Of a stretch of 64,000 nucleotides of DNA, positions 41,467-49,647 are shown one piece after another (the stretch's first letter is position 1; every line of letters begins with the position of its first letter). The stretch lies in assembly GCA_949294195.1 (NCBI GenBank), contig CASFGK010000014.1, positions 1 to 64,000 of the forward strand. Reading direction: 5' to 3'. Source of the stretch: an uncultured Bacteroidales bacterium. Its GTDB lineage: Bacteria; Bacteroidota; Bacteroidia; Bacteroidales; UBA932. Below the pieces are notes generated by a model. It did no database searches. It was not told the DNA's origin and worked only from the letters and a program-made list of their open reading frames with translations. The position numbers and the translations under genes are program-made.

Positions 41467-41489
41467 AGTCGGAACTGTTGTTTTCATGT

Positions 41490-41810
41490 AAAAAGGCGGG
41501 ACCGTAAGCCGGTTTCTGTTTTTGAATCTGCCATTTATCTTCGCAACCTACCCCCTGGCAACGGACAGGCAATCCTTGACTGCCAGTATATTTGGTCTTG
41601 CAGCCCCCAGAACCGTACCCGCTGCATGTCGCCATACAGCGTCGTGAGCTCTTGCCTCACGTTTTCACCCTTGCATTTCCATGCGGTAGTTTTCTGTTAC
41701 GGCGCTCCCGAGATTACTCCCGCCTGCGATTTCCGCAGTGGGGTGCCTTATGCTGTCCGGACTTTCCTCTATTGCGGAAAAAGTCCGCAATAGCGGCAGA
41801 TCGTCCCGCC
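41490..41810 (-). ncRNA. rnpB: RNase P RNA (class A)
   Basis: The minus strand begins GGCGGGACGATC and ends GGTCCCGCC followed by TTTTT, so the two ends pair as helix P1. The conserved core appears as GAGGAAAGTCCGGAC (CR-I, near 41760-41775), followed by the CR-II/III region with GGGTGAAAACGTGAGG, ACAGAAA CTACCGC, and CR-V as ACAGAAACCGGCTTACGG at the 3' side. It is the catalytic RNA of the tRNA 5'-maturation enzyme. It lies 18 bases after the OYE-like gene and just before the TlpA gene, so it is probably transcribed from within or past the reductase gene. Ends are good to a few bases. Confidence 0.95.
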
Positions 41811-41828
41811 TTATATGTCAATTGATAT

Positions 41829-43085
41829 TTATTTATAGCCGAGCCTTCGCTCCATGCTGTCGTTCTGACGGATGGTTTTCTGTACATCGCGTTCAAGAGC
41901 CGGAGTGATGTCCTTGCAGGTCTTGTGGCATGCCATTTCCAGAGAGTACATCCTTCCGATGCAGAAGTTGGTGTGCTCGCATCCGCTGCAGCAGTTCTCG
42001 TCAGTTTTCATCTTGTTCACGAAATCCGTATCCTCAAGAACGGCGCGCCCCATCTGGAGCATCTGGAAACCGCTGTCTATCACTTTGTCTGCATCTTTTC
42101 TCGTAGTTACTCCACCTACATATACCAGAGGCATGTCAGGAAGTGCCGCCCTGAATTTCAGGGAATCTTCCAGGAAGAAGAGCCTCTTGAAAGGTACAGT
42201 AGGGGATACTATGCGTCCGCCGATACGCACTCCAAGCTTCAGCCACCACTGACTCAGCGGCATGTAATGCGCTATTGCCTTTACCGGGAACTGACCTCTC
42301 ATGACATACATGGGAGCCCTGCTGACGAAGCCTCCCGACAGCACCAGTGCATCGGCTCCGCATTTCTGCAGTTCTTTTGCGACTGTGATGCAGTCGTCGA
42401 TTTCCATTCCTCCCTTGAATCCGTCCCTTGTGTTCATCTTGACGAAAATAGCCACTTTGCCTTTCCCGGCCTCCACCACAGAAGCCATGCACTCACGCAT
42501 GAAGCGCATCCTGTTTTCGAGCGAACCTCCGTATTCATCCTTGCGGCGGTTGGTGTATGGAGAAAGGAACTGTGATATAAGATAGCCGTGTCCGGCGTGG
42601 ATTTCCACTGCGTCGAATCCGGCCTTTATGGCAAGTCGGACGGCGTTCCCGTAAGCCTTTACCACATCATCGATTTCAGTTTTGTTCATCCCGTGTACGA
42701 AGGTGGGCGAGTAGAGGTTGAAGCCGCTGCTGGCTCCGTATGGCAGACACCCGCAGATTCTTTTATGGGACATGTTGCCGCAGTGCCCGAGCTGGATGGA
42801 GGCCTTTGCTCCTTCGGCATGGATGGCATCGGTAAGTTTCCTGAGTTCGGGAACTATCTCTTCTTTCATCCACAGCTGTCTTTCAAAGGAAAGTCCGCTT
42901 CTGCAGACAGCGGCATAGGCGACAGTAGTCATTCCGATACCTCCCCTTGCCACGGCGGTATGGTAGTCGAAAAGGGCTTTCGACGGAGAATTGTTTTCGC
43001 ACATTCCTTCGAAAGCAGCAGACCTTATGGTCCTGTTCCTTAGTTCCAGCGGCCCGATCTTATACGGTGTGAATAACTCGCTCAT
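41829..43085 (-). CDS. Old-yellow-enzyme family flavin oxidoreductase with Cys cluster
   Basis: This 418-residue TIM-barrel flavoenzyme shows the OYE opening PYKIGPLELRNRTIRSAAFEGM, QLGHCGN at 98, active-site H163 and H166 in EIHAGHGYLISQFLSP, and GGSLENRMRF. A 4Fe-4S-like Cys set follows at C366, C369, C375 and C386 (pattern C-x2-C-x5-C-x10-C), as in dienoyl-CoA reductase/BaiCD-type enzymes. The C-terminal FAD/NAD domain of that long form (about 640 residues) is absent. Members reduce activated alkenes, including steroid or bile-acid enones. It is 42 bases after the 5-alpha-reductase gene on the same strand. Confidence 0.85.
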   Translation of the reverse strand: MSELFTPYKIGPLELRNRTIRSAAFEGMCENNSPSKALFDYHTAVARGGIGMTTVAYAAVCRSGLSFERQLWMKEEIVPELRKLTDAIHAEGAKASIQLGHCGNMSHKRICGCLPYGASSGFNLYSPTFVHGMNKTEIDDVVKAYGNAVRLAIKAGFDAVEIHAGHGYLISQFLSPYTNRRKDEYGGSLENRMRFMRECMASVVEAGKGKVAIFVKMNTRDGFKGGMEIDDCITVAKELQKCGADALVLSGGFVSRAPMYVMRGQFPVKAIAHYMPLSQWWLKLGVRIGGRIVSPTVPFKRLFFLEDSLKFRAALPDMPLVYVGGVTTRKDADKVIDSGFQMLQMGRAVLEDTDFVNKMKTDENCCSGCEHTNFCIGRMYSLEMACHKTCKDITPALERDVQKTIRQNDSMERRLGYK

Positions 43086-43127
43086 CTTATTATAGTGTCT
43101 TTTGTCTCAAAAGTTTCCTTCAAATTT

Positions 43128-43907
43128 TTACCAGATGAAAGGAATCAGATTCTTTCTATGCAGGTCTTTGTATTCGTCTCCGAATTCTTCCTCATACTTT
43201 GCAGTGAGTGCCTTTGACCGCGGTGCTAGGTTTGCGAAAGTCCAGGCAGCGAAGAGCAGTCCGGCAGGAGACCATGTAAGGATTGCATATCCCACCCATT
43301 CGGTAAGTTCTCCGAAATAGTTGGCGGATGTCACGTATTTGTACAGTCCTTTGCGTGGAATGTAATGTCTGGTGTCTCCCGGTTTTCTAAGGTGTCTGAT
43401 CACATAGTCGGAATCAAGGTTGATCAGCATTCCGGTGATGAATATAAGTGTCCCCGTTATGAACTGCGGACTTGCAAGCCATTCGGTATCATAGCTTCCG
43501 GCAGGGGCGTATTTATAAAGCCAGGCTCCGATAAAGTAGGTATTCACAATATTGAACACCATTCCCATAAGCATGATTGCGACCGGCATCCGGCCTTTAC
43601 CTCTCATGAGCAGGGGGAATACGAAGGATCTCTGGAAATAGTGCAGAAGGAACAGTCCTGCCATGATATACAGGACGATACTGCTGTTTCCCGTACTGAC
43701 TCCGGAGATGGCGTGCCTTACCGTGTACATGAGCATGAAAAAGAATGAAGGGCATTCCATTATCACCCATGCGGTCCTGTTGCTGATTTTAGGCCCCCAG
43801 CTTGGTCCTGACAGATAGCCGTAGCCCGCCTTGAAAAAGAACAGGGCGACGAAAACGACAACTGCCAGAACGGCCATGCAGGCCATCATTATATAATAGG
43901 TGTGCAT
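43128..43907 (-). CDS. Steroid 5-alpha-reductase homologue (SRD5A family)
   Basis: The start at 43907 (MHTYYIMMACMAVLA) gives 259 residues; a longer frame to 44015 runs through the intergenic region. It has six or seven helices. It matches the human SRD5A proteins along the length by eye: ECPSFFF with Glu 51 in the place of the catalytic Glu57, HYFQRSFVFPLLMRG with Tyr 90 in the place of Tyr91, NLDSDYVIRHLRKPGDTRHYIPRKGLY, SANYFGELTEWVGYA, and a C-terminal YKDLHRKNLIPFIW. Such enzymes use NADPH to reduce the C4-C5 double bond of 3-oxo-steroids to the 5-alpha form. A -7 motif lies at 43947. The natural substrate is unknown; a bile acid is plausible in a gut organism. Confidence 0.82.
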   Translation of the reverse strand: MHTYYIMMACMAVLAVVVFVALFFFKAGYGYLSGPSWGPKISNRTAWVIMECPSFFFMLMYTVRHAISGVSTGNSSIVLYIMAGLFLLHYFQRSFVFPLLMRGKGRMPVAIMLMGMVFNIVNTYFIGAWLYKYAPAGSYDTEWLASPQFITGTLIFITGMLINLDSDYVIRHLRKPGDTRHYIPRKGLYKYVTSANYFGELTEWVGYAILTWSPAGLLFAAWTFANLAPRSKALTAKYEEEFGDEYKDLHRKNLIPFIW

Positions 43908-43946: not shown

Positions 43947-43954
43947 CAAAGATA
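43947..43954 (-). promoter_or_regulatory. -7 motif for the 5-alpha-reductase/OYE pair
   Basis: The minus strand reads TATCTTTG, an exact TAnnTTTG match, 40 bases before the 43907 start. This supports the shorter start and one transcript for both reductase genes. Confidence 0.5.
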
Positions 43955-43993: not shown

Positions 43994-44023
43994 TACCCCT
44001 GTTAACGTGATTCATTTTATTCT

Positions 44024-47099: not shown

Positions 47100-47141
47100 C
47101 AGCCGTTTTCGGGAAAAGCCGGGAACGGTTTACATATTTAT

Positions 47142-47216
47142 TTGCGGGGGTACCTTTTACAAGGTTGAGAAATACCCATTGAACCTGATCCGGCTTATAC
47201 CGGCGTAGGGAAGCAG
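47142..47216 (+). ncRNA. TPP riboswitch (thi box)
   Basis: The conserved thi-box core is complete: GCGGGGGTACC, then GGTTGAGAAATACCC (the HMP-binding J2-3/L-region), TTGAACCTGATCCGG, and GGCGTAGGGAAGC. It senses thiamine pyrophosphate. The expression platform before the TonB receptor start contains a stem GCATAA/TTATGC that includes the ATG, followed by TTTTTTATTTT. It also has GTGCCCCC (47237-47244), which could pair with GGGGGTAC of the aptamer (47146-47153). That pairing is inference. Confidence 0.93.
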
Positions 47217-47262
47217 TGATCTCATGCACGAACATAGTGCCCCCTTGCATAAATATCAGATT

Positions 47263-49647
47263 ATGCGAGGTTTTTTATTTTCAGCAGCGCTCTGTGCGCT
47301 GATCCCGTTTGCTGCAGCAGCTGCAGAAAGCGAAGCGGATGGAACATCCGGAAAAGCAGACAACGTGTCTGCAGAAGAAGAAATCAATGACAAGCTCGAC
47401 AGCGTTGTCGTATCCGCCTCCAGGGCGGGAAAGTCCACACCTGTGACTTATACGATGGTAAGCAAGCAGCAGCTCAGGCAGAACAACCCTATCAATTCAC
47501 TGCCTATGATGCTTAACCTTCAGCCATCGGTAGTATCTGTAAATGAAGGCGGAACAGGACTTGGATACTCCAAGATGACCATACGCGGGAGCAAGGGGTC
47601 TCAGGTAAATGTGACACTTAACGGTATTACCCTCAATGATGCAGAGTCACAGGAAGTGTTCTGGGTGAACATACCCGCTCTCACCAACCTTATCAGTTCC
47701 GTACAGCTCCAGAGGGGGCTCGGCACATCTGCCAACGGTGCCGGAGCCTTCGGTGCCAGTGTAAATATGAGTACTGCATCGGTCACATCTGACCCCCATG
47801 TATTCGCTGAGGTCGCTGCCGGATCGTACAATACATTCATGACCACCGTATCTGCCGGCACGGGACTTACAAAGTCAGGAATCTATTTCGATTTCGCCTA
47901 TTCCAGAAACTATACGGACGGCTATATCCGGAATGCAAAAGCCCGGGTACAGTCCGCTTTTGCTGCGCTGGGATGGATGAACGGAACCAACTCTCTCAGA
48001 CTTACTTATCTTATGGGAGACCAGCATACCGGTATCACATGGAATGGAATCGATCCGGTCACTTACGAATCGGACCGCAAGTACAACAGCGCAGGAGAGT
48101 ATACGGACGAGTTCGGCAATGTGCATTATTATGACAACGAGACCGACAATTACACCCAGCATCATATCCAGTTGAACTATACTCATCAGTTTCCGGAAAA
48201 TGTAGTGTGGAGCTCCACTCTGAACTTTACAAAAGGAGACGGATATTACGAGAACTACAAGGCCGGAGAAGACATGTCCGACTACAATCTTCCGGAACTT
48301 CCTCCAAGTCCGGTAATAGATCCTGCGACCGGACAGCAGTTGACGGATGAGAATGGTGATCCGGTTTTCAAGGAAGGTGCGGATTTCATCACCAGAGAAG
48401 CGATGGACAACTATTATCTCGTCTTCAACTCAGATGTGAAATACACATCTGACAAGCTGAACTTCACCGGAGGAGTCAACCTTTCAAGATATGACGGAAA
48501 TCATTTCGGCCATGTCCTCTGGTGCAGCGGTCTGGGTGACGGTTATGACTACAGCGCATATAACGGAAGCGATTCATGGTACCGCAACAACGGACTGAAG
48601 CAGGAAGCGAATGTATTTGCCCGTGCCGAATATACGCCTGTGGACTGGCTTACAGCGTATGCTGATCTGCAGTACAGAGGCGTTTCCCTGAAGATGAAAG
48701 GCCCTGATGATGATGCAGGACTGCTTGACTACAGTACCGCGTGGAATTTCTTCAACCCGCGTGCAGGTCTTACTTTCAGTTGGAGACCTGAACACAAGGC
48801 GTATATTTCTGCCGCAATGGGAAACCGGGAACCCGGCCGCAGCGACATCAAGGAGAATATCAAGAATGTAAACAGCGGAAACAGAGACGGAATATCGATA
48901 AGACCTGAACAGATGGTGGATATCGAGATAGGATACAGGTATACGGGCGGGAAATTCACCGCGTCCGCCAACCTCTATTTCATGGAATATTTCGATATGC
49001 TTCTGGAGACAGGCCGCTTGAGTGATGTAGGCTATGCCCTTAAGGAAAATGTCGGAAGAGCTTATCGCCGGGGTCTTGAACTGGCAGCCGCATGGCAGGC
49101 GGCATCATGGTTCAGGCTTGATGCCAATGCAACGCTCAGTACCAACAAGATTCTTGATTATGTGGGATATTGTGACAATATACGGTATGTAAGCAACGGT
49201 GCCGGTGAGACCGAACGTGATTATCCGGGAGGCCAGACTGCGGTGGAATTCGGGAAGACCGATATGCTCATGTCGCCTTCTCTTATCGGAATGATCCAGC
49301 TTTCATTCCGGCCTTTTGCTTCTGCCTCCGCCGGATCCCTGAAGTCCACGACCCTTGCCATCAACGGGAAATATGTAGGGAAGCAGTATATGGATAACAC
49401 TTCGAGTGACGAGCGCGCAATTCCGGGGTACTTCGTTTCCAACCTTTCGATTTCCCATGAATTCAATGTTAAAGGCGGGAAATTTGGAATCAGCGGGTAC
49501 ATAAACAATCTGTTCAACAACATGTACTATGCAGATGGAGGTGCGTATAATATGTATAATATGGATACAGGGGAAGTTGAAGCTGATGTGTGGGTTTATC
49601 CCCAGGCTCCTGTGAACTTTATGCTGAAGCTGAGCTACAGGTTCTGA
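47263..49647 (+). CDS. TonB-dependent receptor, probable thiamine uptake
   Basis: The start at 47263 (MRGFLFSAALCALIPF) gives 794 residues. The signal peptide is cut near AAA-AESE. The plug opens VVVSASRAGKSTPVTY and contains TIRGSKGSQVNVTLNGITLNDAE. The barrel ends in the terminal aromatic MLKLSYRF, as in outer-membrane receptors. No SusC-type N-terminal carboxypeptidase-regulatory domain is present. The TPP riboswitch directly upstream makes thiamine or a precursor the likely ligand. It ends at a hairpin followed by a T-rich tail around 49706-49736. Confidence 0.9.
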   Translation: MRGFLFSAALCALIPFAAAAAESEADGTSGKADNVSAEEEINDKLDSVVVSASRAGKSTPVTYTMVSKQQLRQNNPINSLPMMLNLQPSVVSVNEGGTGLGYSKMTIRGSKGSQVNVTLNGITLNDAESQEVFWVNIPALTNLISSVQLQRGLGTSANGAGAFGASVNMSTASVTSDPHVFAEVAAGSYNTFMTTVSAGTGLTKSGIYFDFAYSRNYTDGYIRNAKARVQSAFAALGWMNGTNSLRLTYLMGDQHTGITWNGIDPVTYESDRKYNSAGEYTDEFGNVHYYDNETDNYTQHHIQLNYTHQFPENVVWSSTLNFTKGDGYYENYKAGEDMSDYNLPELPPSPVIDPATGQQLTDENGDPVFKEGADFITREAMDNYYLVFNSDVKYTSDKLNFTGGVNLSRYDGNHFGHVLWCSGLGDGYDYSAYNGSDSWYRNNGLKQEANVFARAEYTPVDWLTAYADLQYRGVSLKMKGPDDDAGLLDYSTAWNFFNPRAGLTFSWRPEHKAYISAAMGNREPGRSDIKENIKNVNSGNRDGISIRPEQMVDIEIGYRYTGGKFTASANLYFMEYFDMLLETGRLSDVGYALKENVGRAYRRGLELAAAWQAASWFRLDANATLSTNKILDYVGYCDNIRYVSNGAGETERDYPGGQTAVEFGKTDMLMSPSLIGMIQLSFRPFASASAGSLKSTTLAINGKYVGKQYMDNTSSDERAIPGYFVSNLSISHEFNVKGGKFGISGYINNLFNNMYYADGGAYNMYNMDTGEVEADVWVYPQAPVNFMLKLSYRF

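Follow-up and report, generated by a model that had tools for sequence, protein, structure and literature searches.

What reaction is catalysed by a homologue of the steroid 5-alpha-reductases that is encoded beside a flavin-dependent reductase in an uncultured Bacteroidales bacterium? The question is raised by contig CASFGK010000014.1 (GenBank assembly GCA_949294195.1), the first 64,000 nucleotides of which are the stretch analysed here, referred to as the window. The locus comprises a gene for an SRD5A-family protein (5AR) and, directly downstream, one for a short Old Yellow Enzyme (OYE). The 5AR belongs to the SRD5A family by domain and fold, most of the catalytic residues are in place, and the two genes are linked in relatives and are co-inherited. 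Taken with published work on related bacteria, our results suggest that the pair probably forms a module for A/B-ring isomerisation of 3-oxo steroids, with bile acids in the hindgut as the likeliest substrates; for such a module we infer the substrate, the direction, the electron partner and the role of a short-chain dehydrogenase (SDR). The features concerned are the following.

43128..43907, minus strand: SRD5A-family steroid 5-alpha-reductase homologue (5AR), a membrane protein of 259 residues (Pfam Steroid_dh, PDB sequence matches, AlphaFold model with seven long helices)
41829..43085, minus strand: short OYE of 418 residues, a flavin mononucleotide (FMN) TIM barrel without the flavin adenine dinucleotide/nicotinamide adenine dinucleotide (FAD/NAD) domain (PF00724 alone, NCBIfam, AlphaFold model)
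43086..43127, minus strand: spacer of 42 bases between 5AR and OYE
43755..43760, minus strand: codons M50-E51 of the 5AR, in the place of human SRD5A2 Q56-E57, with Gln replaced by Met (alignment)
43638..43640, minus strand: codon Y90 of the 5AR, in the place of human Y91 (alignment)
41928..41990, minus strand: Cys-rich C-terminal stretch of the OYE, C366-C369-C375-C386, the last three invariant and the first not
43947..43954, minus strand: TATCTTTG, a possible promoter box some 40 bases ahead of the start of the 5AR, fitting the -7 box TAnnTTTG

Family and active site of the 5-alpha-reductase homologue

The 5AR matches Pfam Steroid_dh with 137 bits (cut-off 22.6), DUF1295 also being above its own cut-off with 28 bits. 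A search of PDB sequences at E<=0.001 gave three matches only, namely PbSRD5A (7c83, E 1.3e-51, aligned with 5AR residues 10-258), human SRD5A2 (7bw1, E 1.8e-37) and, far weaker, a C. elegans enoyl-CoA reductase (TECR, E 4.4e-7). The AlphaFold model, built with 36 sequences, has seven long helices at a predicted local distance difference test score (pLDDT) of 82 and, compared with the PDB at E<=0.001, matches only 7c83 (TM 0.80) and 7bw1 (TM 0.75). An earlier note, made on the letters of the window without database searches, had claimed a likeness to SRD5A proteins over the full length, which the Pfam match and both structures bear out; in sequence and in fold the protein is closest to SRD5A rather than to enzymes of lipid synthesis. 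Assignment as a TECR- or DUF1295-type lipid enzyme was rejected on the bit scores of the two Pfam models and on the fold, which matches SRD5A only.

In the alignment with human SRD5A2, E57 corresponds to E51 and Y91 to Y90, where the earlier note had placed the catalytic pair. The Q-E-Y signature of steroid 5-alpha-reductases (PMC7815742) is not preserved, human Q56 being M50 in the 5AR. All three residues, M50, E51 and Y90, are kept throughout both alignments (105/105 and 81/81 rows, each including the window once; a genome is possibly counted twice in some cases in the alignment and locus sets, which come from the relatives search and the named scan), the signature reading M-E-Y in all Bacteroidales homologues aligned. 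Among the eight NADPH-site residues listed for human SRD5A2 (N160, D164, R171, N193, E197, R227, H231 and Y235; PMC7815742), seven are identical in the 5AR and H231 is replaced by L234. In the human enzyme the Q56A and Q56L variants have no activity, H231A being an exception in that activity is not significantly lowered (PMC7815742). Since Met is present in every aligned Bacteroidales homologue, and since 5AR activity has been reported for strains of Bacteroidota (PMC10382948, section 12), Met in the Gln place is probably compatible with activity, by analogy with those strains. On the first of these observations we rejected the idea of M50 as the sign of an inactive enzyme peculiar to this genome. 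Because M50 breaks the Q-E-Y signature, the 5AR is placed by domain and fold, as a member of an M-E-Y subgroup of the SRD5A family and not as a Q-E-Y enzyme. It shares with PbSRD5A and human SRD5A2 whole-length homology, the fold and the catalytic Glu and Tyr, and, with the human enzyme, seven of the eight NADPH-site residues; it differs from both in having Met for Gln, Leu at the His231 place and a linked OYE.

Conservation of the gene pair

The closest relatives of the locus, as judged from the best 80 of 136 relatives (the named loci), are in Candidatus Cryptobacteroides and other uncultured Bacteroidales; none of the 80 is titled Parabacteroides or Odoribacter, one metagenome-assembled genome (L067) is titled Bacteroides sp., and L066 belongs to a culturable commensal, Muribaculum sp. 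An289. An OYE is the next gene downstream on the same strand in all 80 named loci, five of which are cut by a contig end. The spacing lies between a 1-base overlap and 134 bases in 78 of 79 relatives and is 382 bases in the other, the spacing of L019 being unmeasured at a contig end.

An order-level search of 393 Bacteroidales genomes found some 5AR match (E<=0.001) in 127, with the strong matches falling into two groups. In the close group (at least 45% 5AR identity), all 52 places of which were fetched, the OYE is downstream in 41 loci, within 115 bases in 37 and at 205-586 bases in 4. In the distant group (<=43% identity), 28 of 41 places were fetched (E from 1.1e-60 to 1.4e-39) and none of the 28 has an OYE within about 2.5 kb. 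Counted by genome, 48 of the 51 with a close 5AR carry the OYE (E below 1e-130), as against 9 of the 342 others; G179 makes a 49th, its OYE being in two contig-end pieces. 5AR and OYE distances correlate over 116 linked pairs (Mantel r 0.88, 0/1000 permutations as high), a value to which shared species history contributes. The adjacency of the two genes is far beyond chance, and a chance neighbourhood was rejected on these counts. The earlier note had proposed the pair, with its coordinates, strand and 42-base gap, and had asked whether it is conserved in relatives: all of this holds, and the genes are not separated in all relatives.

In a tree built by a quick method, the close 5AR group is set apart by a branch with 100% Shimodaira-Hasegawa-like approximate likelihood ratio test (SH-aLRT) support. 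The tree supports the unity of the close group only, because the close and distant groups were predefined by identity to the window 5AR, the distant group does not form a single clade, and long branches are flagged for the rows of TECR and PbSRD5A.

Within the genus (G001-G036) there are two types of 5AR, one 73-85% identical to that of the window (6 genomes) and one 49-52% identical (13 genomes); 17 of the 36 genomes, many of them incomplete, are without any 5AR. Two genomes, G037 and G152 (loci L187-L190), have two 5AR copies each, none of them beside an OYE, and G152 has an OYE elsewhere. Open reading frame (ORF) calling lost 19 of 133 loci (window included) in the neighbour survey and 3 of 39 in the distant-group survey, two of the latter being distant. 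In the distant group (L192-L219, without a nearby OYE), a gene of one family (about 326 residues) lies directly upstream on the same strand in 15 of the 26 ORF-called loci. Its Pfam matches, Epimerase and 3Beta_HSD, make the member in L198 an extended SDR (NCBIfam HpnA and SdmB best, both below cut-off), and the distant group appears to represent a second pairing, of SRD5A with an SDR.

The short Old Yellow Enzyme

PF00724 is the only Pfam match of the OYE, whereas E. coli FadH, scanned for comparison, shows the FAD/NAD domain as well. The best NCBIfam model is BaiCD, with 215 bits, below the equivalog cut-off of 825, and the best matches of the AlphaFold model (37 sequences, pLDDT 85) are OYEs, with FadH (1ps9) at rank 15. 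The earlier note's description of a 418-residue OYE without the FAD/NAD domain is confirmed, and the form is not peculiar to this genome: the 41 linked order-level loci all encode an OYE of 403-439 residues, on which ground a truncated gene was rejected. In seven genomes (G018, G236, G285, G345, G350, G096 and G138) the OYE match reads through one in-frame stop. Most of these matches extend beyond the point where the alignment usually finishes, so that the stop is probably the natural end of the gene, with G018 as a possible exception.

The C-terminal cysteines were compared in 138 OYE homologues, chosen by identity (>45%) and length (>380 residues) and so carrying no evidence on length. C369, C375 and C386 are kept in 138, 138 and 137 of the 138, the one shortfall being due to a row that is cut, and all 138 have C102 next to H101. 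An extra Cys 1-4 residues upstream of C369 is present in 113 rows (112 scored by the pattern, and L120, which is cut after the second invariant cysteine) and missing in 25 of the 137 scorable rows, 20 of the 25 having, as judged by eye, a Cys within 4 residues after C386 instead; L131, L149, L155, L162 and L178 have neither. The iron-sulfur-like Cys set of the earlier note is partly right, with three invariant residues and a variable usual first ligand. The window OYE resembles the iron-sulfur OYEs BaiCD and FadH in its FMN TIM barrel, in the Cys cluster at the C-terminal end of the barrel and in having BaiCD as its best model, and differs from them in domain content and in falling far under the BaiCD cut-off. 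By sequence letters FadH has the pattern Cx2Cx3Cx11C, the cysteines of which we take to be Fe-S ligands, whereas the window OYE has a Cx5Cx10C core with a variable fourth cysteine. The pLDDT of the model is <50 at residues 375-379, so that the cysteine site is not placeable in three dimensions; the cysteines may bind either an Fe-S cluster, at a reshaped site whose fourth ligand can shift, or zinc.

With no FAD/NAD domain, the OYE would exchange electrons either directly with NAD(P)H or via a separate carrier. A comparable case is the short form of the bilirubin reductase BilR, an OYE TIM barrel without the electron-transfer domains of the long form, which is accompanied by the flavodoxin-like BilS (PMC10769871); it differs from the window OYE in this partner, none of that kind being seen by eye among the ORFs flanking the window pair. 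The tree of OYE 5-beta-reductases in PMC12238238, the main text of which has no word beginning with Bacteroid, excluded sequences of <500 residues, and the short form would therefore fall outside it.

The third gene of related clusters

In many relatives outside the lineage of the window, the third gene is an SDR (adh_short) of one subfamily, present in 13 of the 19 loci L064-L082 and in 24 of the 52 order-level loci, the flanks being short in some of the loci scored. It lies directly after the OYE in 32 of 36 instances. It still follows in 7 of the 14 loci in which the OYE is not beside a 5AR (L225-L238; L239, where the OYE was lost in ORF calling, is left out), so the OYE-SDR link exists also without a neighbouring 5AR.

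The genome of the window has an unlinked SDR of the cluster subfamily (G000:C13:4777-5625), up to 41% identical to the cluster SDRs. A homologue at 56-60% identity occurs in 5 of the 6 other genomes with a window-type 5AR (G029 is the miss), so that this SDR is kept in 6 of the 7, the window's included, and in none of the other 54 genomes at >=50% identity. This conservation suggests that the dehydrogenase may have left the operon and been retained in the lineage of the window, with G000:C13:4777-5625 as the candidate moved gene. In the genus-mate G001 (locus L241), which has the second 5AR type, the 5AR, the OYE and two SDRs lie in a row.

Proposed function and alternatives

The closest precedent is a cluster of Parabacteroides merdae and its kin from the 2021 work of Honda and colleagues, as reported in section 12 of the review PMC10382948. 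It consists of a 5AR, a BaiCD/BaiH-like NADH:flavin oxidoreductase (the proposed 5-beta-reductase, 5BR) and a predicted 3-beta-hydroxysteroid dehydrogenase (3-beta-HSDH), and disruption of its 5AR stops the formation of allo-bile acids, with loss of the allolithocholic acid (alloLCA) products (PMC10382948). The indirect route published for Bacteroidota oxidises the 5-beta form to the delta-4 compound, from which 5AR gives the 5-alpha form (PMC10382948). A 5AR next to a BaiCD-like OYE, as in P. merdae-type clusters, is found in the window and in 80/80 named loci; the bacterial order is the same, and many relatives of the window pair have the SDR as third gene. The likeness is one of layout, and the lineage of the window differs in having its SDR homologue outside the locus.

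By analogy with this cluster, the OYE, as an enzyme of 5BR type, would convert 3-oxo-5-beta substrates into 3-oxo-delta-4 intermediates, exchanging electrons in one of the two ways given above. The 5AR would then deliver hydride from NADPH to the alpha face of C5, while Y90 and E51 hold the 3-oxo-4-ene and protonate it, to give 3-oxo-5-alpha (allo) products. A C3 dehydrogenase would make or use the 3-oxo group, in the lineage of the window probably the unlinked SDR. The earlier note had suggested a possible module for double-bond reduction; the conservation of the pair, the SRD5A family of one partner and the layout shared with the reported cluster support it in part, but the OYE probably runs in the direction opposite to the 5AR. 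An isomerisation module fits better than a reduction module because two reductases would compete for one bond and because the published route oxidises the 5-beta form first.

As to habitat, record names in Cryptobacteroides point to poultry and ruminant hindguts. In favour of bile acids, the 80 named loci include 15 RGIG ruminant genomes, every one of them labelled caecum, colon or rectum, whereas the large intestine supplied 111 of 370 samples in the RGIG study (PMC8199421); this hindgut bias is unmatched by taxon and is a lead only.

Several observations weigh against the proposed module. The distant locus L073 has an RUG name, presumably denoting the rumen. Gln56, essential in human SRD5A2, is Met in the 5AR. 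The linkage is also incomplete: 11 of the 52 close-group loci are without a nearby OYE, some genomes have the OYE unlinked, G037 and G428 carry a 5AR without an OYE, nine genomes have the OYE but no close 5AR, and G035 has a 77% OYE and no 5AR match. Nor does the Mantel permutation correct for shared species history. The SDR is present in 0/61 of the loci of the window's Cryptobacteroides lineage (L003-L063, 70-85% 5AR identity), nor is it in the window locus. Orthology to the tested enzymes of P. merdae, B. dorei and Odoribacter is drawn from the order-wide survey, and it is from sequence that we infer activity in the lineage of the window.

The same chemistry might serve mainly another substrate, either host hormones (testosterone, progesterone) or dietary or host sterol enones (cholestenone), bile acids being incidental, a reading that we consider unlikely. 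Bile acids, unlike hormones, normally have the 5-beta configuration, and an OYE of 5-beta type would be useful for substrates supplied in that form. The phenotype of the P. merdae disruption likewise concerns bile acids (PMC10382948), whereas PbSRD5A responded mainly to progesterone (PMC7815742), and microbial 5-alpha-reductase genes, for which Odoribacter splanchnicus and Parabacteroides distasonis are proposed as sources, track the circulating dihydrotestosterone (DHT)/testosterone ratio in women (PMC12589954). It is improbable that both enzymes are ene-reductases working consecutively or in parallel in the reducing direction, e.g. on delta-4 and delta-6 or delta-1 bonds, for electron disposal; joint reduction was the reading of the earlier note. 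OYE-family enzymes of other gut bacteria do reduce steroid double bonds, NADH-coupled delta-4 reduction having been shown for ci2350 (PMC12238238), but here a 5-beta- and a 5-alpha-reductase would compete for one bond, and the layout agrees with the 5-beta to 5-alpha route of Bacteroidota (PMC10382948).

We regard as highly improbable an endogenous role of the 5AR homologue in lipid metabolism, with a polyprenol, an enoyl-CoA or a precursor of quinones as the compound reduced, in the manner of SRD5A3 and TECR. Both of these enzymes are in the same superfamily as SRD5A, the 5AR has the weak TECR and DUF1295 matches given above, and distant Bacteroidales homologues often lie beside a gene resembling HpnA or 3-beta-HSD; however, true steroid 5-alpha-reductases are by far the closest to the 5AR, its spread is patchy and accessory (51/393 Bacteroidales genomes at >=45% identity and 19/36 genomes of the same genus, many incomplete), and it is tied to the OYE and, in many relatives, to the SDR.

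Within the favoured interpretation, isomerisation of 3-oxo steroids, a more specific scenario can be sketched, which is speculative and, on balance, doubtful. The M-E-Y 5ARs would be a mechanistically separate SRD5A class which, together with a FAD-less OYE with a reshaped metal site and an external electron carrier, isomerises 5-beta to 5-alpha forms in a nearly redox-neutral way; with the C3 dehydrogenase of Cryptobacteroides outside the operon, the formation and release of 3-oxo-allo products may have a control of their own.

The kind of pair described here is already known, and the step beyond the known cluster is modest; what is new is the lineage-specific layout, with the SDR elsewhere in the genome, and two mechanistic oddities. 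A literature search gave no mention of Cryptobacteroides among the matches listed, too narrow a basis for calling the pair of this lineage undescribed. The pair extends the genetic potential for allo-bile acids and steroid 5-alpha-reduction to uncultured Cryptobacteroides; allo-bile acids, isoalloLCA among them, are inhibitory to Gram-positive pathogens (PMC10382948). It also poses the questions of whether Met can replace the Gln of the catalytic pocket and of what trades electrons with a FAD-less OYE, and the two-gene version with its displaced dehydrogenase may end at products other than those of the three-gene version.

Gene start, possible promoter and neighbouring features

The 5AR and the OYE are presumably transcribed as a single unit. 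The ORF tool offered an earlier ATG for the 5AR at 44015; the start at 43907 is preferred because relatives match from residue 1 and because of the possible promoter box at 43947-43954. The box fits TAnnTTTG, which we take to be the -7 box of Bacteroidetes, but it is weak evidence, since a scan for this motif gave 3 matches in 3462 bases against a mean of 1.46 by chance. A scan for sigma-70 promoters found 1, against a mean of 3.2 expected.

The OYE is immediately followed, on its own strand, by an RNase P RNA gene (window 41489-41812, minus strand). On the other side of the pair, a thiamin pyrophosphate (TPP) riboswitch (window 47136-47229, plus strand) lies ahead of an ORF of 807 residues (47224-49647), the product of which looks by eye like a TonB-dependent receptor and is perhaps a transporter of a thiamin compound.

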